Part shown: piece by piece, positions 883 to 45,145 of the stretch
Position numbering within the stretch: position 1 is the first letter of the stretch
How the letters are laid out: the number at the start of each line of letters is the position of its first letter
Assembly (NCBI RefSeq): GCF_000283515.1
Contig: NC_015976.1
Span: 124,001-188,000 of the forward strand
DNA: 64,000 nucleotides
DNA from: Sphingobium sp. SYK-6
GTDB taxonomy: Bacteria > Pseudomonadota > Alphaproteobacteria > Sphingomonadales > Sphingomonadaceae
Reading direction: 5' to 3'
Translations under genes and position numbers: made by a program
The notes under the pieces: generated by a model
Told to the model about the DNA's origin: nothing
What the model saw: only the letters and a program-made list of their open reading frames with translations
Databases searched by the model: none

Positions 883-1641
883 ATGGCGCGAATGGACGTG
901 CTGCCCGTCGCTCGAGCCTATAGCGACATCGCAGGCCTAGTTGCCGCTCCCCCTCGCTGCCGCAATTGCGCCGTGCGCGACTCGGCGCTTTGCTCGAGCC
1001 TGGACAATCGTGAGCTGAGCGCGCTCAGCGACATCGGCCGGCGGCGGACCATCCCCGCAGGCCAGGTCGTCAGCTGGGCTGGCGACGCCAGCAGCAGCTG
1101 CGCCAATGTCGTGAACGGGACCCTGAAGGTCACCGCGACCATGGCGGACGGACGCGAACAGATCGTCGGCCTGCTGTTCCCGGGCGATTTCGTCGGCCAG
1201 CTTTTCTCCGACGAGACTTCGCTGACCGTGACGGCGCTTACCGACACGGATATCTGCAGTTATTCCCGCACGGCATTCGAGGGCCTGCTGGACGACCTGC
1301 CGCGGATGGAGCGGATGCTTCTCAAGCGCACCATGGCTTCGCTCAACGAAGCGCGCGACCGCATGCTGTCGCTGGGGCGCAAGAACGCGCAGGAGCGCGT
1401 GGCAGGCTTCATTCTCGATCTCGCCGATCGTTCCGGTCGCGAGGAGCATGATGGCAGCATCCATGTCCATCTGCCGATCAGCCGCGGCGGCATGGCGGAC
1501 TATCTGGGCCTCACCATCGAGACAGTGAGCCGTCAGCTAACCAACCTCAAGTCCGCCGGCATCATCAGCTTCGCCAAGGGCGATCGGGAATGCCGCATCC
1601 TGGATCGCGACCAGCTGGAGGACATCGTCAATCCGGCGTGA
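883..1641 (+). CDS. fnr: Fnr/FixK-type Crp-family oxygen-sensing regulator
   Basis: This 252-residue regulator of the Crp/Fnr family controls the switch to low oxygen. Three N-terminal cysteines, C26, C29 and C37, have the C-x2-C-x7-C spacing of cluster-binding Fnr proteins, and C125 (in DTDICSYS) is placed like the fourth ligand, so a [4Fe-4S] oxygen sensor is likely rather than a cluster-free FixK. The effector domain covers about residues 45-150, followed by the dimerisation helix. The winged HTH lies at about 200-230, with ETVSRQL as recognition helix; the E-x2-SR pattern predicts recognition of TTGAT half sites. Such boxes occur in its own leader and upstream of the next gene. ATG 883 has a good GGAGG six bases upstream. 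Confidence 0.93.
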   Translation: MARMDVLPVARAYSDIAGLVAAPPRCRNCAVRDSALCSSLDNRELSALSDIGRRRTIPAGQVVSWAGDASSSCANVVNGTLKVTATMADGREQIVGLLFPGDFVGQLFSDETSLTVTALTDTDICSYSRTAFEGLLDDLPRMERMLLKRTMASLNEARDRMLSLGRKNAQERVAGFILDLADRSGREEHDGSIHVHLPISRGGMADYLGLTIETVSRQLTNLKSAGIISFAKGDRECRILDRDQLEDIVNPA

Positions 1642-2752: not shown

Positions 2753-2776
2753 TTGCGCATTGTCTATTGCGCATTG
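2753..2776 (+). repeat. 10-bp direct repeat in the amidoligase operon leader
   Basis: TTGCGCATTG occurs twice, 14 bp apart, within 50 bp of the predicted ATG at 2802. It is followed by an AT-rich CACAATATTTGCG. It could be part of the promoter or an activator site, or chance repetition. Confidence 0.35.
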
Positions 2777-2801
2777 CACAATATTTGCGTTGATTGCCCG
2801 G

Positions 2802-5800
2802 ATGCTCAAAGCCGCCGTCTATCACCGCACCGCCTATCACTACAGCCGGCCTGTCCGCCTTGGCCCCCAGATGGTGCGCCTGCGGCCTGCCCCGCATAGC
2901 CGGACCAAGGTGCCGAACTATGCTCTGCGCATCGAGCCGGACAACCACTTCATCAACTGGCAGCAGGATCCCCATGGCAACTGGCAGGCCCGGCTGGTGT
3001 TTCCCGAGCCTGTCGACCGTTTCGTGGTCGAAGTGGACCTGCTGGCCGACCTCGACGTCATCAATCCGTTCGACTTCTTCGTGGAGCCTTATGCGGAAAA
3101 TTACCCGTTCGCTTATGAGGAGGCGCTTGCCAGCGATCTTGCTGCCTATTTCGATCTCGAGGTGCAGGGGCCGCTGTTTGAGTCACTGGTCGCGCAGCAT
3201 GCCGGGCATCAGGGCCGCACGATCGATTTCCTCGTCGACATCAATCGCCAGCTCGAACAGCGCGTCGGCTATGTGATCCGCATGGAGACGGGCGTGCAGA
3301 CGCCCGAGGAGACATTGCGGATCGGCACCGGCTCGTGCCGGGACAGCGCGTGGCTGCTGGTGCAGCTGCTGCGCCGGCTGGGCTTCGCTGCGCGCTTCGT
3401 TTCCGGCTATTCGATCCAGCTCGTGGCGGATGTCGAGCCGGTCGAGGGGCCCAAGGGCGTGAGCCAGGATGTGGTGGACCTTCATGCCTGGGCGGAAGTC
3501 TATGTGCCCGGCGCCGGCTGGATCGCGCTCGACGCCACGTCCGGCATGTTCGCCGGCGAAGGGCATATCCCGCTCTGCGCCACGCCGCATTATCGTTCCG
3601 CCGCGCCGATCGAAGGCATGGCCGAGCCGGCCGAGGTCGACTTCCGGTTCGAGATGCGCGTCTCCCGCATCGCGGAAGCGGTCCGCATCACCAAGCCGTT
3701 CACGGACGAGCGCTGGTCAGCCGTGCAGGCACTCGGCGAGCAGGTGGATGCCGATCTCGCCGCGCAGGACGTGCGTCTCACCACGGGGGGCGAACCCACC
3801 TTCGTCGCCGTGGATGGGGGGCAGGAAGACGAGTGGAATGGCGGCGCCGTCGGCCCCACCAAGCAAGGCTATGCCGACAGGCTGACCCGCGCCCTGCGCG
3901 CGAAGTTCGCGCCCGGCGGCATGCTCCATCACGGGCAGGGCAAATGGTATCCGGGTGAAAGTCTGCCGCGCTGGGCCTATGCCATCTACTGGCGCAAGGA
4001 TGGCGCACCGGTGTGGCGCGACGCGACCCTCATCGCGCAGGAGGATGGTGAAGGCAAGGCGCCCGCCACGCCCGCGATGGCGGAGCGCTTCATGGCCGGG
4101 CTGGCCGCCGGGCTGGGTGTGGGGCCAAGCTATGTGCTCCCGGTGTTCGAGGACGAGGAGGAATGGGCGAAGAAGGAAGAAGCGCTTCCCCTCAACGTCA
4201 CGCCCGAGGACAACAAGCTCGACGACATCGAAGCGCGTGAACGGATGCGCAAAGCCTATGAGCATGGGCTCTCCAACGCCATCGGCTACGCGCTGCCGAT
4301 CCAGCGCTGGCAGGCTGCGCAACCCGCGCCGCGCTGGATGAGCGAAGTGTGGAGCGTGCGCCGGGGCCGGCTCCGCGCGGTGCCGGGCGACAGTTCGCTG
4401 GGCTATCGCCTGCCGCTCGGGGCGCTGCCTTATGTCCCGCCGGCCGCCTTCCCCTATATCCACCCGCGCGACACCAGCGAACCACGCGAGCCGCTGGCCG
4501 ATTTCCATGTCCAGCGCACCGAGCGCGCGGCCAGGCCCGATCCGCGCGAGCAGATGGTGGCCTCGCGCAGCGAAGCGCCGGACACCGCGGCGCAGGAGCG
4601 CGTCGAGCAGGAATTCATCGAAGGCGCGGTCCGCACTGCCATCACGGTGGAACCCAAGGCGCATTATCTCTCCGTGTTCCTGCCGCCGGTCCGCGCGCTG
4701 GAGGATTATCTGGAGCTGGTGGCGGAAGTGGAAGCGGTGGCATCCGCGCTGCAGGTGGAAGTGCGGATCGAAGGCTATGCCCCGCCGCCGGACCCCCGCC
4801 TGCAGGTGCTCAAGATCACGCCGGACCCCGGAGTCATCGAAGTCAATATCCAGCCCGTCGCGACCTGGGCGGAGACGGTGGACCTCACCGAATCGCTGTA
4901 TGACATCGCGCGCGAGCACGGGCTGACCGCGGACAAGTTCATGATCGATGGCCGGGCGGTGGGCACCGGCGGGGGCAACCACATCGTGCTGGGTGGGCCG
5001 AGCCTTGAGGATTCGCCGTTCATCCGCCGGCCGGACCTGCTCAAGAGCTTCGTCCTTTACTGGCAGCGGCACCCCTCGCTCAGCTATCTCTTCTCCGGCC
5101 TTTTCATCGGGCCGACAAGCCAGGCGCCCCGCATCGACGAGGCGCGGCATGACGGCCTCTACGAGCTGGAAGTCGCGCTGGCGCAGGTGCCCGGGCCGGG
5201 GGCAGGCGAGATGCCGCCGCCATGGCTGGTCGACCGGCTGTTCCGCAACCTGCTGGTCGACGTGACCGGTAACACGCATCGCACCGAGATCTGCATCGAC
5301 AAGCTCTTCTCGCCCGACGGCCCGACCGGCCGTTTGGGCCTGGTGGAATTCCGCGGGTTCGAGATGCCGCCGGATGCGCGGATGAGCCTGGCGCAGCAGC
5401 TCCTGCTGCGTGCCCTCACGGCCTGGTTCTGGCGCGCGCCGCAGGATGGCGGGCTCGTGCGCTGGGGAACCCGCCTCCACGACCGCTTCATGCTGCCGCA
5501 TTTCGTATGGAGCGATTTCCTCGATGTGCTCGCGGACCTGCGGCACGCCGGCTATGTGTTCGACCCCGCCTGGTTCGAGGCGCAGCGCCAGTTCCGCTTT
5601 CCGGTCCATGGCACGGTGCGCGCCGGTGGCGTGGAGCTGGAGATCGCCCATGCGCTGGAGCCATGGCATGTGCTGGGCGAGACCGGCGCGATCGGCGGCA
5701 CGGTGCGCTATGTCGACAGCTCGACAGAGCGGTTGCAGGTGCGAGTGAGCGGCCTTGTGGAAGGGCGCCATGTCGTCGCCTGCAATGGGCGACGCGTGCC

Positions 5801-6146
5801 GATGACGCCGACCGGCGTGGTGGGCGAAGCAGTGGGCGGGGTCCGCTACAAGGCCTGGGCACCCTCGGACTGCCTGCATCCGCGCCTGCCCGTGAATGCG
5901 CCGCTGACCTTCGACATATTCGACCAGTGGAGCGGGCGATCGCTCGGCGGCTGCGTCTATCATGTGGCGCATCCGGGTGGTCGCAACTATGATGACGTGC
6001 CGATCAATGCCTATGAGGCAGAAGCGCGGCGCAAGGCGCGGTTCCAGGATCATGGCCATACGCCGGGATCGATGGCGCTGCCGCTCGAGGAGAAGACAGG
6101 GGAATTCCCATTGACGCTTGACCTGCGCCGCCCCCCGAGCTTGTGA
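2802..6146 (+). CDS. Transglutaminase-like / DUF2126 putative amidoligase fusion protein
   Basis: This large protein (1114 residues) combines two enzymes. The N-terminal 290 residues are a bacterial transglutaminase-like domain with its thiol-protease triad C179 (GTGSCRDS), H228 (DLHAWAEV) and D244 (IALDATSG). From about residue 300, starting near [10 protein letters not shown], comes DUF2126, a family assigned to the glutamine-synthetase-like amidoligase fold, expected to form amide bonds with ATP. ATG 2802 is chosen because the family starts right at this K-A-A-x-Y-H-R-T-x-Y strand; an upstream TTG at 2760 is in frame but less likely. No clear Shine-Dalgarno sequence precedes it. The stop overlaps the next start (GTGA), so the two genes are translationally coupled. 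Substrate and product are unknown. Confidence 0.9.
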
Positions 6147-8644
6147 CACGGATGGCAGGCGCCACAGTGACCATGGAAGATTTCGATCCCGCCCTGCAGC
6201 GTTACCGGCGGGAAGCCAGCCGCAGCGACCTGATGCTGAGCGCGCAGGGCGATCCGCGCATGGCCGCATGCTGGCAGTCCATGCTGGCCACGCTCGCCGG
6301 GCCGGACCGGGGCGGCCTTTCCGGCCTGCAGGAGCGCACGGCGCAGCAGGTGCTCGATCTGGGCATGGCCTTTCGGCTGACCGGCGAAGTGGAGGAGCGG
6401 GTCTGGCCGCTCAGCCCGGTTCCCATATTGCTCCACGCGACCGAATGGCGCGGAATCGAGGATGGCCTCGCGCAACGGGCCGACCTGCTCGAAGCGGTGC
6501 TGGACGATGTCTATGGAGCGGGACGCCTCGTGCAGGAAGGCGCGCTGCCTGCCGCTATCGTCACCGGCAGTCCCGACTACTGGCGCCAGATGCAGGCCAT
6601 CCCGCCGCCGCATGGACATCGGCTGCAATTCTATGCCGCCGACATGGCGCGCGGGCCCGGCGGGGAATGGCGCGTGCTGGCCGATTATGTCCGCTCGCCG
6701 GTGGGGGCCGGATACGCGCTGGAAAACCGGCTGGCGATGACCAGAGCGACGGACGATGCGCTGGGCGCCATGAACTTCGCCCGGCTGGCGCCTTTCTTCG
6801 CCAGCTTCCGGCAGGGACTGGCGGCGATCTGCGCCCGCCCGGATCCGCGCATCGCCCTGCTTACGCAGGGGCGATACAATCAGAGCTATCCCGAGCAGGC
6901 GCATCTGGCCCGTTATCTGGGCATATTGCTGGTGGAGGGCGATGACCTGACCGTCCGCGACGGGCAGCTGTTCGTCCGCACGATCGAAGGCGTCAAGCGC
7001 GTGGACGGTGTCTGGCGCCGCATGGGCACCGATCTGCTGGATCCCCTGGCATTCGACGCGCGCTCGACTATCGGCGTACCGGATCTGTTCGAGGCGATCC
7101 GGACGGGTGGCCTTGCCATGGCGAACTGGCCGGGTGCCGGGCTGGTGGAAACGCCCGCCCTTGCCGCTTTCCTGCCGCGGCTGAGCAAGCGCCTGCGGAG
7201 CGAAGCGCTGCGCATTCCCAATGTCGCGACCTGGTGGTGCGGTCAGAAGAGCGAACGCGAGCATGTGCGCGCGCATGTCGATACGCTGGCCATCGGTTCC
7301 GCCTTCGGCCTGCCGGTGCCTGCCATCCCGCACGGCCGCGCCCGGCTCGCCGCGCGGCTGAGCAGCTCGGAGCGCGCCGCCTTCCTGGCGGAGCTGGATC
7401 AGCGGCCCGTCGATTATATCGGGCAGGAACTGGTGCGGCTCTCGACGACGCCGGCGCTGGTCGGCGGCCAGCTCCTCCCCCGCCCCTTCATCCTTCGGAC
7501 CTTCCTCGCCCGGGATGCGCAAGGCAACTGGTGCGCCATGCCGGGAGGCTTCGCACGCCTCGCCGCCCATGACGACATGCGCGCGGTGCTGATGGGCGAG
7601 GGCGACATGTCCGCCGATGTCTGCATCGTCGCCGACGAGCCGCAGCCGGCCATGACGCTGCTGGAAACCGGCAAGGCGATCAGCATCCGGCGCGTGGCGG
7701 GCACGCTGCCCAGCAAGGCGGCCGACAATTTCTTCTGGCTGGCGCGCTATCTGGAGCGGGGCGAAATGGTGCTGCGCATGGTGCGCGTGCTCATCGGCGG
7801 CAGCATCGAGGCGGAAACCGCGTCCTCGCTCGACCAGCCCACGCTGCGCCGCGTTGCGGACGTGCTGATCGCCTGGGGCGCGGCGACAAACGCCGCCGTG
7901 ACGGGCGGCATCCACCCGCTATGCGTCCATGCCCTGAGCGATCCGAAGATGCCCGGCAGCGTGCACGCGCTTTTCGAGGCGGCCGAGGCCATCGGACGGG
8001 GCTTGCGCGAGAGGCTCGCGATCGATTTCTGGAGGCTGCTCAACCGGGGGCTGGGCGATGTCGCCGCGATGCAGGGGTCACAGCTCATGGCGCATGTCGC
8101 CCGGCTGCTGGATCGCTGTGCGTCGCTTTCCGGCCTTTCTGCGGAAAACATGATGCGCGGGGCCGGCTGGCGCTTCCTCGACATGGGTCGGCGGCTCGAG
8201 CGCGCGGTGCACATTTGTCGGCTGGTCAAGACCTTTGCGGGCGACAATGCCAGCGCGCACGATCTCAATCTCCTGCTGGACCTCTCCGACTGCCAGATCA
8301 GCTATCGCACCCGCTATCTCGCCGGCCTCGCGCTTGCGCCAGTGCGTGACATGCTGGTGCTGGAGCCGGGCAATCCACGGTCGCTGGCGTTCCAGGCCGA
8401 TGCTCTGCTGGAGCATCTCTCGGCGCTGCCCACGCTGCGTGACGATGGCATGCCCGAGCGGCCGGTGCAGATCGCCAATGCCATCGCCGCGCGGCTGCGC
8501 GCCACGACGGCCGAGACGCTTGCGGCAGGCGACCTCGACTTCATCGAGCGGCAGCTTCTCGACCTGTCCGACAGCATCAATGACCGCTTCTTCCTCAAGG
8601 GGGAGGATGCCCCGCGCGCGTCGGGCATGACCCGGCTCGCATGA
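6143..8644 (+). CDS. Circularly permuted ATP-grasp peptide ligase fused to an alpha-E domain
   Basis: This 833-residue fusion starts with a circularly permuted ATP-grasp module (roughly residues 80-480), with recognisable segments such as [20 protein letters not shown] and the [12 protein letters not shown] region. An alpha-E helical domain follows (about 520-820), marked by [14 protein letters not shown] near residue 527. ATP-grasp enzymes of this kind join a carboxylate to an amine; the alpha-E domain is known almost only from these operons. The GTG at 6143 overlaps the stop of the upstream gene by 4 bp. ATG codons at 6152 and 6173 are possible alternative starts, and the latter gives [14 protein letters not shown], a more typical beginning. 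It is followed after 10 bp by a second transglutaminase. Confidence 0.9.
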
Positions 8645-8654
8645 AGGTGCCCGC

Positions 8655-9551
8655 ATGAGATACAAGGTCAGCCACATCATCCGGGTCAATTATAATCCGC
8701 TCGTGCGCCTGGCGCATTTCAACCTGCGCCTGGCACCGATTCCCTGGCCCGGGCAGCAGGTCGATCAATACGAGCTCGCCGTTGATCCGCTGCCGGATCG
8801 GCGGGAGGAGCGGCCGGGCGCCTATCCTTTCAAGCTCGTGCGCGTCGAGATCATGAAGCCCATATCGACGCTTGAAGTGCGCTCGACCTTCATCGCCGAG
8901 GTCGGCGATGCGGAACTGGATTTCGCGGCCTCAGGGCTGACCATCGCACAGGTGGCCAAGGCGGCCCTTGAGGTGCGGCGGCTGGATGCCATGGCGCCGC
9001 CCCATTATCTTTTCCCGTCCCGCCTGCTGCCTGCCACGCCGCAGATCGCGCAATGGGCAAGACCCCTCCTGCCGCCGGACGCGGACTGCCTGAGCAGCGC
9101 TCTCGCCCTGGCCCAGACCATCCGGTCCAGCTTCCGGTATGACACGAGCGCGACGCAGGCGGATACGCCGGTCGCCGACGCCTTCGCTATCAGGCGTGGG
9201 GTCTGCCAGGATTTCGCCCATGTGCTGATCGTGGCCCTGCGGTCGGTGGGGCTGCCTGCGGCTTATGTGAGCGGCTATCTGCGCACTTATCCGCCCCCGG
9301 GTCAGCCGCGACTGGTCGGCGCTGACGCGATGCACGCCTGGGTGGCGCTCTGGTGCGGGCCGCAACGGGGCTGGGTCGGCATTGATCCCACCAACGGCGT
9401 GATGGCCAATGCCGATCATCTGGTCGTGGCCATGGGGCGCGATTATTCGGACATCTCGCCGATCGACGGGGTGTTCGTGGGCGGCGCCTCGCAGAAGACC
9501 TATAATTCGGTCGACGTCTCGCCGATCGATACGCGGACGATGGCGAGCTGA
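8655..9551 (+). CDS. Transglutaminase family protein (third gene of the amidoligase operon)
   Basis: This 298-residue protein has an N-terminal beta-rich transglutaminase-like region (about 1-140) and a catalytic core with C184 (RGVCQDFAH), H227 (DAMHAWVAL) and D244 (GIDPTNGV). It is a separate paralogue of the N-terminal domain of the first operon gene and presumably cleaves or transfers peptide bonds made by the two ligases. It has no signal peptide, so it acts in the cytoplasm. It lies 10 bp after the ATP-grasp gene and closes the operon. The proteasome-like Anbu peptidase often linked to such operons is absent here. Confidence 0.9.
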   Translation: MRYKVSHIIRVNYNPLVRLAHFNLRLAPIPWPGQQVDQYELAVDPLPDRREERPGAYPFKLVRVEIMKPISTLEVRSTFIAEVGDAELDFAASGLTIAQVAKAALEVRRLDAMAPPHYLFPSRLLPATPQIAQWARPLLPPDADCLSSALALAQTIRSSFRYDTSATQADTPVADAFAIRRGVCQDFAHVLIVALRSVGLPAAYVSGYLRTYPPPGQPRLVGADAMHAWVALWCGPQRGWVGIDPTNGVMANADHLVVAMGRDYSDISPIDGVFVGGASQKTYNSVDVSPIDTRTMAS

Positions 9552-10600: not shown

Positions 10601-11734
10601 TCAGAGTGTATCGACTGGTCGAGACCCCGCTGACGACTCGGCGGCGTCGCCCGGCACCATAGCGCTTTGCTCAGGCGCGCGCATGTCCGACACGATCGTC
10701 CATGTCGCGATGAACAGGGCCGCGATGACAGGACCGATCACGACACCGCTGAAGCCGAACAACTCGATGCCGCCCAGCGTCGAAATGAGCACGACATAAT
10801 CGGGAAGGCGCGTATCCCTGCCGACGAGAATCGGACGCAGGAGATTGTCGACCAGTCCGATCACGAACAGGCCGCACAGGACAAGGATGATCGACTTGAC
10901 GATGGCGCCGCTCACGAAAAGATAGATCGATACCGGGACCCAGACGAGGCCGGTGCCGATCGCCGGAAGCAGCGAAAAGAACCCCATGAGGACGCCCCAG
11001 AGAAGCGCGCCTTCCACCCCGAGCACCCAGAAGACGAGTCCGCCGATCAGCCCCTGAAGGATGGCGACGACGATGCTCCCCTTGATCGTCGCGCGGATGA
11101 CCAGCACGAACTGCTTCAGCAGCGCTTCGCGCTGGGCGAGACGCAGCGGTGTGCTGTTCATCAGCCGTCGCGAGAGATCGTCACCGTCCCGCAGGAGGAA
11201 GAAGGTGAGGTAGAGCATCACGCTGAGCGCGATGAGGAAGCTGAAGGCGCCCTGGCCGATCACCACCGCCTGCGCCGCAAGAACGCGCAATATGTCGGCG
11301 ATGCCCGCATTGAGCCGCGCGCGGGCGGCTTCGAAGTCGGCGAAGCCAAGCCGTTCGAGCACGCCCACTGCCCAGCCGGGGAGGTTTTCACGCAGGCGTG
11401 AGAACAGCATCGCGAAGTCGATCTCGCCAGATTGGATGCGCCCATAGAATAAGGTCGCTTCCTGGATCAGCGCCATGCTGAGCAGGATCGCCGGGACGAT
11501 CACCATGGCCACGATCAACACAAGCGTAATGGCCGCGCTGGTGTTCGGCCGGCGCGGGAAAGCCGCAAGCAGGCGGTGATAGACCGGCGTGAAGAGGATC
11601 GCAGCGATCACGCCCCAGAGAATCGCCACGAAGAAGGGCTCGATGAGAAAGGCGAATGCAACAGTGACGAGCAGGACAAGGCCCAGGAAGAAGCCGTCCT
11701 CTACGCGCATTCCGGGGCGGGCCTGAGGCTCCAT
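10601..11734 (-). CDS. AI-2E/PerM family transporter
   Basis: This 377-residue membrane protein of the AI-2E transporter family has two N-terminal helices (VAFAFLIEPFFVAILWGVIA), a central amphipathic region near 90-150, and a C-terminal helical bundle. It carries the hallmark LPDYVVLISTLGGIELFGFSG followed by GPVIAALFIATW. Family members export autoinducer-2 or act as ion antiporters, so the substrate cannot be assigned here. It lies just upstream of the HdeD gene on the same strand. Confidence 0.88.
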   Translation of the reverse strand: MEPQARPGMRVEDGFFLGLVLLVTVAFAFLIEPFFVAILWGVIAAILFTPVYHRLLAAFPRRPNTSAAITLVLIVAMVIVPAILLSMALIQEATLFYGRIQSGEIDFAMLFSRLRENLPGWAVGVLERLGFADFEAARARLNAGIADILRVLAAQAVVIGQGAFSFLIALSVMLYLTFFLLRDGDDLSRRLMNSTPLRLAQREALLKQFVLVIRATIKGSIVVAILQGLIGGLVFWVLGVEGALLWGVLMGFFSLLPAIGTGLVWVPVSIYLFVSGAIVKSIILVLCGLFVIGLVDNLLRPILVGRDTRLPDYVVLISTLGGIELFGFSGVVIGPVIAALFIATWTIVSDMRAPEQSAMVPGDAAESSAGSRPVDTL

Positions 11735-42508: not shown

Positions 42509-45145
42509 TCAGTCGAACATCGAGGCGATTTCGCGGCCCCGCGCCGTGCGCAACGCGGCGCAGGCGCGAATCTGCTCGATGGCCCGGTCAAGTTCGAGCG
42601 CGCCGCGCTGATACTGGACCACCTTGGGCCGCAGTGCCGCTTCCGCGCGATCGGCTTCCGCCGCCGAGCATCCCGACTGGGTGATCCCGGGCAGGCTGGC
42701 CGCCGCGAAGATGCCGGCGCCGGTCACCACCGAATCATAGTTCGCGACCAGCCAGTCGATGGCCAGGGCCCGCGTGGCTGGCTCGCTCGCCATCCCGCGC
42801 ACCATGCGCAGCGTATCCGTGGGCCGCAGGCCCTCCTGCCCAAAGCGGGAGATCAGCCATTGCGCGATCGCCGGATCGCCACTGCCGGCCAGCGCGCTCA
42901 GCATGGCGCCGCGCCGCACCGTATCCTCGCTCGCGAGGGCGCGAGTGAACAGATCGCCAGCCACGGCCTGCCCGCCCTGCGCCACATAGGCGCCAAGTGC
43001 GGCGGAAAGGAAGGAGAGGTCGAGCGCACCGGCATCTCCGGCAAGGTCGGCTTTCATCGCGGCGACGAGGGTGTCGCGCACGCCCTTGTCCTTCGCTTCG
43101 CCGGCCAGCAGCGAGACGAGGCTGCCGCGCCGCGCGCGACGATCCGGATCGTCGGCGGCATAAGCGCCGGCGCGGGGATCGAAGCCAAGCTCCGCCAGCA
43201 TCGGCGCATAGATCGCATCGAGCGTTGCCTTGTAGGCATCCAGCGTCTTGCCGGGGAAAAGCCCGCGCCGGCGCAGTCCAGCCAGGCGATCGCCAGCCTC
43301 CGTCGCAGCTTCCGAATAGGCATGGCCGGCCATGCTCCGCGCCGCCTTGACCAGCAATGAGGGCGCGGCATGCCCTGCCCGCATGTCCGCCCAGAGACTG
43401 TCATTGAGCGCCAGTGCCTCGCCCGGTTCGAGACCGGGGCCGGCCTCGATCAGCCGCACCCACTCCGCCTCATCCAGCGAGAAGCGATAATAGCCGGTGC
43501 CGTCGGCATTAGGCATGATTGCGCCGGCCCCGGTGAGCGGCAGCGTTGCCGTCGGCCGATCGAGCAGCGAGCATTGCCGTGCCTCGCCGAGCTTCACGCA
43601 GAGCGGAATCAGCCAGCTCTGCGCCGGCACCTGGCTTCCGAGCAGGTGATAGCGGGACTGGCTGACCGTCAGGCCATTTGTCGCGCGCGCGAGCTTCACG
43701 ACCGGAACGCCCTGCTGGTGGACGAAGCTCTTGAGCGCTTCGACGATCCGCGGGTCGCCCGCCGCCTCGGCCAGAGAAGCGAAGAAATCCTCGCTGCTTG
43801 CCGAGCCATAAGCGTGGCGATCCATGTGGAGGCGGACGCCGTTACGGAACTTCTCGTCACCCAGATAGGACGCAATCATGGAGACGACCTGGCCGCCCTT
43901 GCCATAAGTCACCGCATCGAAGGCGCTGTCGATCTCGGCATTGCTCTTGATCGGCTGACGGATCGGGCGGCCGGCGGTCAGCGCGTCGGTGTTCATGGCC
44001 TGGAACGCCTCGTCGATGGCACCGACGCCGATCTTCAGGTCCGGCCGCCATTCATCGCCGATGCGATAGCCCATCCAATTGGCGAAGCTCTCGTTGAGCC
44101 ACAGATCGTCCCACCATTTCGGCGTCACGAGGTCGCCGAACCACTGGTGCGCCAGTTCATGGGCCACCACCATGCCGAACAGCTGCTGCTGTCCAACCGG
44201 AGGAATTTTGCCGAGCAGCAGGATCGGGTCGCCGTAGATGTCCGCCCCGGCATTCTCCATCGCGCCCTGCATCACAGGCGAGGCGATCTGGTCGAGTTTG
44301 GGGAAAGGGAAGGGGGTGCCGAAATAGCGTTCCAGCAGCGTTACGATCGGTCCGGTGTTCTCCAGCGCGAAAGCCAGCTTCTCGCTGTTCGGCTCGGTCG
44401 CGACGACACGCACTGGAAGCGGCTTCGCGCGCTCGGGCGTCGGCGCGACGCTGCCTTCCGCCACGGCCATCGGTCCCACGACGAATGCCATCAGATAGGT
44501 TGGCAGCGGCAGGGTCGGGGCGAAGCTGTGCTTCACCAGCGTGCCGACCGTCTCTTCACCGGTCTGCGGCGCATTGGTGAGCGCGGTCTGGCCGGCCGGG
44601 GCGGTCAGGCTGACCGTGAAGGGCGTCTTGTGGCCCGGTTCGTCGAAACCGGGGAAAGCGGCGCGGGCATCGATCGACTGGAACTGGGTCCAGGCATACC
44701 ATTTGTCGGCCACCTTGACGCGATACAGGCCGGACGGGCTCGCCCCGAACGGTGCGTCATAATCGAAGACCAGCGTCGCTTTGCCTGCAGGTAGCGGACG
44801 AGCGAAATCGAGCCGGGCCACGCCCAGCGAATCGACCTCGGCATAGCTGGCGGCGATCACCTGCCTGCCGACACGCGCTGCCACTTTGTGCATCGCAAGG
44901 TCGCGGCCATGGATGAACAGCGACTGGGAGGCTTCCTTCACATCGATGTCGATCTCGACATGCCCCGAAAAGCGCTCACGCTCCGGTACGATGGTGAGAT
45001 CGATGCGATAGGCGGAAGGCGCCGCCACGGTGGGCAGCAGCCCCTGCGGAACGGACGGCGAACTGGCTTGCTGGGCGGGCTGCGCAATCAGCGGCGCGGC
45101 AGTGGCCAGCAGGACCGGAGCGAAGAACTGACGGAAAAAGCGCAT
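42509..45145 (-). CDS. M1 family aminopeptidase, secreted
   Basis: This 878-residue zinc aminopeptidase has a signal peptide (MRFFRQFFAPVLLATAAPLIAQ), so it is periplasmic or extracellular. Motifs are GAMENAG for substrate N-terminus recognition near residue 285, the zinc site HELAHQWFGDL with the third ligand in LWLNESFA near residue 325, and an ERAP1-like C-terminal domain. ATG 45145 gives the signal peptide; the long upstream open stretch is only the antisense of purH. It lies 29 bp downstream of purH on the same strand and may be read through from it. Confidence 0.93.
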   Translation of the reverse strand: MRFFRQFFAPVLLATAAPLIAQPAQQASSPSVPQGLLPTVAAPSAYRIDLTIVPERERFSGHVEIDIDVKEASQSLFIHGRDLAMHKVAARVGRQVIAASYAEVDSLGVARLDFARPLPAGKATLVFDYDAPFGASPSGLYRVKVADKWYAWTQFQSIDARAAFPGFDEPGHKTPFTVSLTAPAGQTALTNAPQTGEETVGTLVKHSFAPTLPLPTYLMAFVVGPMAVAEGSVAPTPERAKPLPVRVVATEPNSEKLAFALENTGPIVTLLERYFGTPFPFPKLDQIASPVMQGAMENAGADIYGDPILLLGKIPPVGQQQLFGMVVAHELAHQWFGDLVTPKWWDDLWLNESFANWMGYRIGDEWRPDLKIGVGAIDEAFQAMNTDALTAGRPIRQPIKSNAEIDSAFDAVTYGKGGQVVSMIASYLGDEKFRNGVRLHMDRHAYGSASSEDFFASLAEAAGDPRIVEALKSFVHQQGVPVVKLARATNGLTVSQSRYHLLGSQVPAQSWLIPLCVKLGEARQCSLLDRPTATLPLTGAGAIMPNADGTGYYRFSLDEAEWVRLIEAGPGLEPGEALALNDSLWADMRAGHAAPSLLVKAARSMAGHAYSEAATEAGDRLAGLRRRGLFPGKTLDAYKATLDAIYAPMLAELGFDPRAGAYAADDPDRRARRGSLVSLLAGEAKDKGVRDTLVAAMKADLAGDAGALDLSFLSAALGAYVAQGGQAVAGDLFTRALASEDTVRRGAMLSALAGSGDPAIAQWLISRFGQEGLRPTDTLRMVRGMASEPATRALAIDWLVANYDSVVTGAGIFAAASLPGITQSGCSAAEADRAEAALRPKVVQYQRGALELDRAIEQIRACAALRTARGREIASMFD

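Follow-up and report, generated by a model that had tools for sequence, protein, structure and literature searches.

Iyer, Aravind and co-workers are said to have predicted, in 2009, a peptide-ligase system composed of DUF2126, Alpha-E, circularly permuted ATP-grasp (CP-ATP-grasp), transglutaminase (TG) and Anbu proteins. Sections of two later papers describe the operon of this system (PMC6376114, PMC5666114), and no product of the Anbu/DUF2126 system is reported in the literature that we searched. Three genes with the same domains, in the same gene neighbourhood, lie near the start of the 64,000-nucleotide stretch of Sphingobium sp. SYK-6 DNA analysed here (NC_015976.1, positions 124,001 to 188,000; hereafter, the window). 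A first-pass annotation, made from the sequence alone, had read them as two ligases paired with two peptidases, without Anbu. The locus raises the question of which of its proteins can form an amide bond, where Anbu is and when the genes are expressed. Here we report that the ATP-grasp domain encoded by the second gene looks catalytically dead. Compared with the 2009 system as later papers describe it, the version in this genome is split between two remote operons, has a degenerate fused ATP-grasp and carries sites resembling operators of PhaR, the polyhydroxybutyrate (PHB) sensor. We put about equal weight for and against the proposal that the window contains one half of a two-operon amide-bond system for carbon excess and nitrogen shortage, in which the second gene encodes a pseudo-ligase and PhaR is the controlling regulator.

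Domain organization of the operon

The operon comprises the following features, in window coordinates.

2802 to 6146, plus strand: gene 1, a TG (N-terminal and core domains) fused to a DUF2126 glutamine synthetase (GS)-like amidoligase, 1114 amino acids
6143 to 8644, plus strand: gene 2, a degenerate CP-ATP-grasp fused to Alpha-E, 833 amino acids
7706 to 8593, plus strand: Alpha-E domain of gene 2 (Pfam), residues 522 to 817, with the conserved ER motif E538-R539
8655 to 9551, plus strand: gene 3, a second TG-like protein (Pfam), 298 amino acids, triad C184/H227/D244

Open reading frames and Pfam matches bear out the earlier placement of three coupled genes between 2802 and 9551: genes 1 and 2 overlap by 4 bases, a 10-base gap separates genes 2 and 3, and all three are on the plus strand. 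Profile searches also place the domains as first assigned, including DUF2126 and Alpha-E. Gene 1 matches Bact_transglu_N, Transglut_core and DUF2126 (1297 bits, all 826 positions covered), gene 2 matches CP_ATPgrasp_2 (E = 1.7e-126) and Alpha-E (E = 1.1e-65), and gene 3 matches Bact_transglu_N and Transglut_core, as well as the Protein Data Bank (PDB) entry 3isr (E = 5.8e-11). An NCBIfam search of the three proteins assigned no family. The start of gene 1 was set at ATG 2802 rather than TTG 2760, because an ATG stands at the homologous start in 10/10 sphingomonad loci fetched from named genomes.

Both TG domains have the intact Cys-His-Asp triad claimed for them, with C179/H228/D244 in gene 1 as the counterpart of the gene 3 triad. 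Cys and His are each conserved in 22/22 members of both TG groups, and Asp in 22/22 of the gene 1 type, which includes two stand-alone TGs, and 21/22 of the gene 3 type. DUF2126 has a GS-like fold, with GmaS among the GS-fold relatives in the structure list, and its acidic, His and Arg candidate active-site positions are invariant through 39/39 sequences. Gene 2 combines the Alpha-E profile match with the ER motif, whose Glu and Arg are found in 20/21 and 21/21 fused copies, respectively; comparison of Alpha-E with solved structures gave weak helical matches only.

An alignment search with DUF2126 confirmed 588 stretches, the best 80 of which were fetched as loci. The three-gene neighbourhood recurs in relatives: the genes stand in the same order in 70 of these best 80 loci, and five of the remaining ten run off the contig. 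DUF2126, CP-ATP-grasp, Alpha-E and TG domains share one neighbourhood, and the association with the 2009 system is upheld through the two later papers. The operon is a common member of a known peptide-ligase system, and its kind is therefore already known.

Loss of Mg/ATP residues in the fused ATP-grasp

An alignment was built from 98 fused and 20 stand-alone ATP-grasp domains, one fused and two stand-alone pieces being omitted as too short, and residues were numbered according to the ATP-grasp of this genome's own anbu operon. E155, N157, K363 and N454 are each present in 20/20 stand-alone copies and in 1, 0, 7 and 1, respectively, of the 98 fused copies, none of which retains all four together; gene 2 of the window has A180, Y182, G385 and L483 at these positions. 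We take K363 and the Gly residues following it to be the ATP loop, by analogy with other ATP-grasp enzymes. D142, E155, N157 and S162 form a D...E-x-N-x4-S pattern like that of trypanothione synthetase (TryS), with a spacing of 13 versus 14 in TryS, whose Mg ligands are given in a section of PMC3581523 as Asp330, Glu344 and Asn346. At the third Mg ligand position, D142, the fused copies have Asp (67) or Glu (31), and H421 and D423 are retained by 1/98 and 0/98 of them.

Gene 2 has the fold of the active CP-ATP-grasp and lacks the E-x-N Mg ligands, the ATP-loop Lys and Gly and the C-terminal Asn, whereas the anbu-operon ATP-grasp keeps its catalytic residues. PDB 3n6x, a putative glutathionylspermidine synthase (29% identity), scores 628.7 bits to the stand-alone type versus 190 to the fused type. 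Judged by its residues, the fused ATP-grasp of gene 2 looks catalytically dead, and we predict it to be a pseudo-ligase. The first-pass count of two peptide-bond-forming enzymes does not survive this result, and the pairing of two ligases with two peptidases falls with it.

The fused domain is conserved rather than decaying, since the scaffold residues R270, D278, R425 and D463 are present in 98/98 fused copies. A tree built with 46 of the 98 fused copies and the 20 stand-alone ones groups the fused type in one clade, acidobacterial copy included (support 0.94). The domain might instead be changed and not dead: it could rely on a different arrangement of metal or nucleotide, or act on a different substrate, with an Arg at the old Asn position newly catalytic. 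Such a change would fit the Arg that occupies the Asn157 position in 93/98 fused copies and the invariant scaffold; however, the window copy has Tyr (Y182) there, and the Lys and Gly of the ATP loop were lost without a constant replacement, making new catalysis distinctly improbable in our view beside a pseudo-ligase.

A remote Anbu operon in the same genome

The first-pass statement that Anbu is missing holds for the window operon, which contains no anbu gene, but not for the genome: a complete ATP-grasp/Alpha-E/TG/Anbu operon with an intact ATP-grasp, its TG and Anbu identified by Pfam, lies at C1:2760500-2764533, 2.63 Mb from the window operon, ruling out the absence of Anbu from the genome. 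This is the Anbu operon of, for example, Y. bercovieri and P. putida (PP_2685-2688), here complete and outside the window. The ATP-grasp of the Y. bercovieri operon releases phosphate from ATP, according to a section of PMC6376114. Near the anbu operon, locus L027 has at 10657-11667 (C1) a gene of the asparaginase/isoaspartyl-peptidase type (Asparaginase_2, Pfam), adjoining a frame that, on visual inspection, looks like 2-isopropylmalate synthase.

Co-occurrence was examined in a class sample of 142 genomes, 21 with DUF2126, and a family sample of 119 genomes, 26 with DUF2126. Of the 142 class genomes, 35 have Anbu, among them 14 of the 21 DUF2126 genomes. The two genes lie within 10 kb of each other in 2 of these 14, several of which are drafts with the two on separate contigs; constant tight linkage in the lineage, raised in the first pass as a pattern that would make the local arrangement unremarkable, did not occur. 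Stand-alone Alpha-E, a marker of the anbu-type operon, is present in 19/21 class genomes with DUF2126 versus 26/121 others (Fisher p = 2e-9), with stand-alone and fused copies assigned by score and frame length and G075 counted as stand-alone; the two DUF2126 genomes without it are assemblies 84% and 74% complete. The family sample gives a weak test, because stand-alone ATP-grasp, present in 25/26 DUF2126 genomes, is found in 99/119 genomes anyway (the scan matched 100, G233 by its fused copy only).

These counts bear on the view that the window operon alone, without Anbu, produces a peptide or tag with two active ligases and trims it with two peptidases. The conserved active-site candidates of the TG and DUF2126 domains agree with it, as do the 7/21 class genomes that have DUF2126 and no Anbu, a count that also tells against a two-operon machine. 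It is opposed by the anbu operon in the same genome and by the joint absence of the four Mg/ATP residues from all 98 fused copies, and we regard it as very unlikely.

PhaR-like sites upstream of the two operons

The promoter region had been called unusual on account of a dyad and repeats. Direct repeats (2747-2774) and an inverted repeat (2359-2384, 12-nt arms, 92% complementary, between the operon and a hemerythrin-like gene) do exist, but conservation falls on a PhaR-like site and not on the dyad. The TGACAC-N4-GTGTCA dyad core is not in the fetched locus (L249) of the congener G217, for which reason the dyad was rejected as a conserved operator. The exact block common with this congener before the ATG comprises 22 bases (2764-2785) and consists of the second repeat copy and the following site, which overlaps it.

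2770 to 2781, plus strand: putative PhaR/AniA-like operator CGCATTGCACAA, 32 bases before the gene 1 ATG, matching YGCRNYGCASMA

A sigma-70 promoter upstream of gene 1 was rejected, as 0 sigma-70-like pairs were found in the promoter region (shuffle mean 0.9), and the plus-strand sigma-54 site TGGYM-N6-TTGC occurs within 350 bases upstream in 0/79 loci. Further upstream of the operon are a gene for a CRP/FNR-type regulator and the convergent hemerythrin-like gene on the opposite strand (window 883-1638 and 1652-2089).

Sections of two papers give the PhaR site as TGCRNYGCASMA in B. diazoefficiens (PMC6201568) and as WNWDDNYGCRNYGCRNHHWNW in S. meliloti (PMC12542648); in the latter, the window 12-mer lies inside the promoter site of S. 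meliloti phaR (aniA, SMc03880), where binding is rated weak, and SMb21227, an ATP-grasp-domain protein, is PhaR-repressed. In the first upstream tests, which used 85 of 88 sources, the B. diazoefficiens consensus was found in 16/85 upstreams versus 3/1700 random stretches and 9/1700 shuffles; with the leading Y, it was found in 20/85 versus 23/1700 and 31/1700, and the S. meliloti form without the left arm in 23/85 versus 33/1700 and 67/1700. The core site is present in 11/11 sphingomonad loci (about -31 to -44), 10/10 loci titled Rhizobium, Sinorhizobium, Ciceribacter or Metarhizobium (mostly -55 to -75) and 6/6 Mesorhizobium loci (about -89 to -102), and in few of the remaining loci; the lineage names are those of the record titles, and the grouping of loci by lineage is our assumption. 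In the family sample, YGCRNYGCASMA lies upstream of 13/24 DUF2126 genes and 16/42 stand-alone ATP-grasp genes versus 42/2280 control stretches; no start was found in 11 loci, and several family genomes therefore lack one or both upstreams. Among 2000 column-permuted consensus strings, 0 reached either family count, the best giving 4.

Within the SYK-6 genome, a PhaR-like site precedes the ATG of the remote anbu operon by 36-39 bases. A Phasin_2 gene likewise carries one consensus site at the 5′ end, and a second, looser site can be made out by eye upstream. The operator sequence upstream of the window operon is accompanied by a phaR gene in the genome; PhaR is found in 19/21 DUF2126 genomes and 82/142 overall in the class sample. 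A further pattern match in the window, at 44886, lies inside a coding frame and was discarded. Together, the PhaR-like sites suggest that both operons are under PHB-sensor control through putative PhaR binding.

Several results pull the other way. Both sites are found in only 5/17 family genomes with both upstreams read, and the YGCRNYGCASMA site also in 7/25 genomes read that have no DUF2126. Across the class and plasmids the PhaR-like site is not enriched, with 1/26 gene-1-type upstreams (one stand-alone TG included, one short upstream dropped) and 1/20 stand-alone ATP-grasp upstreams (at least two of them for genes internal to a longer operon) compared with 18/1720 controls. No literature report of these genes in a PhaR regulon was found, and three PhaR regulon papers contain no mention of 'transglutaminase' in their main text. 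Genome-wide, the pattern has 215 matches versus 111 for the reversed pattern, and about half of the matches may therefore be background. This count and the lack of class-wide enrichment would suit a site that belongs to another regulator or to an untranslated-region element. Set against that explanation are the match to a consensus resting on footprinting and gel shifts and the phasin gene with a site in the same genome; we consider it somewhat unlikely, and retain PhaR as the candidate regulator.

Arrangement of the genes in other genomes

The three genes stand in order in 16/21 DUF2126 genomes of the class sample (window included), three of them with an inserted stretch. Inserted genes or frames between DUF2126 and gene 2 (L078, L084, L089 and L090) were set aside as partners because they looked unrelated, by eye only and with no profile search. 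Queried with gene 1, tblastn gave matches in 26 plasmid records, covering most of the protein in 25, and the matches include Burkholderia, Caballeronia, Azospirillum, Acidithiobacillus, Enterobacter, Halomonas and an acidobacterium. Three loci (L178, L179 and L181) have the three genes preceded, on the same strand, by a stand-alone ATP-grasp and Alpha-E, with a TG intervening in L178 and one other annotated gene in L179; in the class genomes G035 and G042, the stand-alone pair directly follows the three genes.

Some loci have other arrangements. L181, from the 90.7 kb Enterobacter roggenkampii plasmid NZ_CP116251.1, is a compact five-gene cassette among insertion sequences, in the order ATP-grasp, Alpha-E, TG-DUF2126, fused ATP-grasp-Alpha-E and TG. 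L062 (G012), L068, L069 and L070 have a two-gene form, the fused ATP-grasp-Alpha-E and a TG, with no DUF2126 match. On an Acidithiobacillus caldus megaplasmid (L180), the DUF2126 cluster lies near ntrB/ntrC-type genes and an amidase; two frames match Anbu there, and TG and DUF2126 occupy separate frames.

Nitrogen limitation in other lineages

PHB is made under carbon excess. Related clusters are induced by nitrogen limitation: according to sections of the respective papers, P. putida PP2685-2687 are up 6.6- to 11.1-fold (PMC3325844), PP_2686-2688 are up 11- to 15-fold in the first strain column during polyhydroxyalkanoate (PHA) production (PMC7801951), and the four-gene B. cenocepacia cluster I35_5080-5083 is NtrC-dependent, with log2 changes of -6.0 to -9.4 in an ntrC mutant (PMC5491218). 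The B. cenocepacia cluster encodes an ATP-grasp, an Alpha-E, a TG and a large TG protein, in the order seen in L178, from another strain of the species; by analogy with L178, the large TG protein probably contains DUF2126. Unlike the window operon, this cluster is under NtrC/sigma-54 control and includes a stand-alone ATP-grasp. It thus appears that the machine and the state governing it are shared between lineages and that the regulators differ, on which ground we propose one machine in two operons.

Nitrogen limitation would equally suit a catabolic role. In gamma-glutamylation pathways, an amine is glutamylated and the adduct is then hydrolysed; on this model, DUF2126 would glutamylate an amine and the TG-like enzymes would hydrolyse the adduct to scavenge nitrogen, with no tag and no stored product. 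The control reported in Burkholderia and P. putida and the presence of GmaS among the GS-fold relatives favour this role, whereas the recurring unit consists of TG, DUF2126, ATP-grasp, Alpha-E and Anbu only, in locus scans that sought these proteins alone and could therefore miss a partner of another family. We rate pure scavenging as a minority prospect.

Discussion

The proposed two-operon system would work as follows. Gene 1 would be the working ligase, with DUF2126 activating a carboxylate with ATP and joining it to an amine, and its fused TG, like the second TG of the same kind encoded by gene 3, would transfer or cut the product via a Cys thioester. Gene 2 would serve as a non-catalytic pseudo-ATP-grasp-Alpha-E that binds a substrate or other ligand or scaffolds a complex, while the remote operon would supply in trans a catalytic ATP-grasp with its own Alpha-E, TG and Anbu. 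Anbu, where present, would act as a hydrolase, and the TG-like enzymes would be either hydrolases or transferases. PhaR probably represses both operons in this species from sites whose centres lie about 26-33 bases ahead of the first gene; as PHB accumulates, PhaR would move to the granule and both operons would be switched on. Our first guess for the product is not a protein tag but a small adduct, an amide or isopeptide, in which nitrogen would be stored or recycled.

Beyond the genome counts given above, three points weaken this proposal. Residue loss predicts, and does not prove, loss of activity in gene 2. In sections of the respective papers, pull-down with the Y. bercovieri Anbu operon gave no specific complex (PMC6376114), and the Anbu-like gene PP_2685 hardly changed (1.12) in the column in which PP_2686-2688 rose (PMC7801951). 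Neither a degenerate fused ATP-grasp nor a PhaR link had an earlier report in the literature searched, which left most subscription papers and the 2009 founding paper outside.

More broadly, an ancient, conserved pseudo-ligase may lie at the core of a bipartite Anbu/DUF2126 amide-ligase machine, in a regulatory or substrate-binding role, and this machine may be wired to PhaR in sphingomonads and, for the DUF2126 operon, in rhizobia such as Rhizobium, Sinorhizobium and Mesorhizobium, a generalization that we hold tentatively, at a little short of even. The predicted loss of function in one supposed ligase removes a wrong assumption about the system. The PhaR-like sites point to a growth condition (carbon excess, nitrogen limitation and PHB present) and to a switch (phaR, phaC) for a product search, and this condition agrees with the nitrogen-limitation control reported for the Burkholderia and P. 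putida clusters. If correct, the proposal would reveal a modification or nitrogen-storage pathway that runs during bioplastic granule synthesis.

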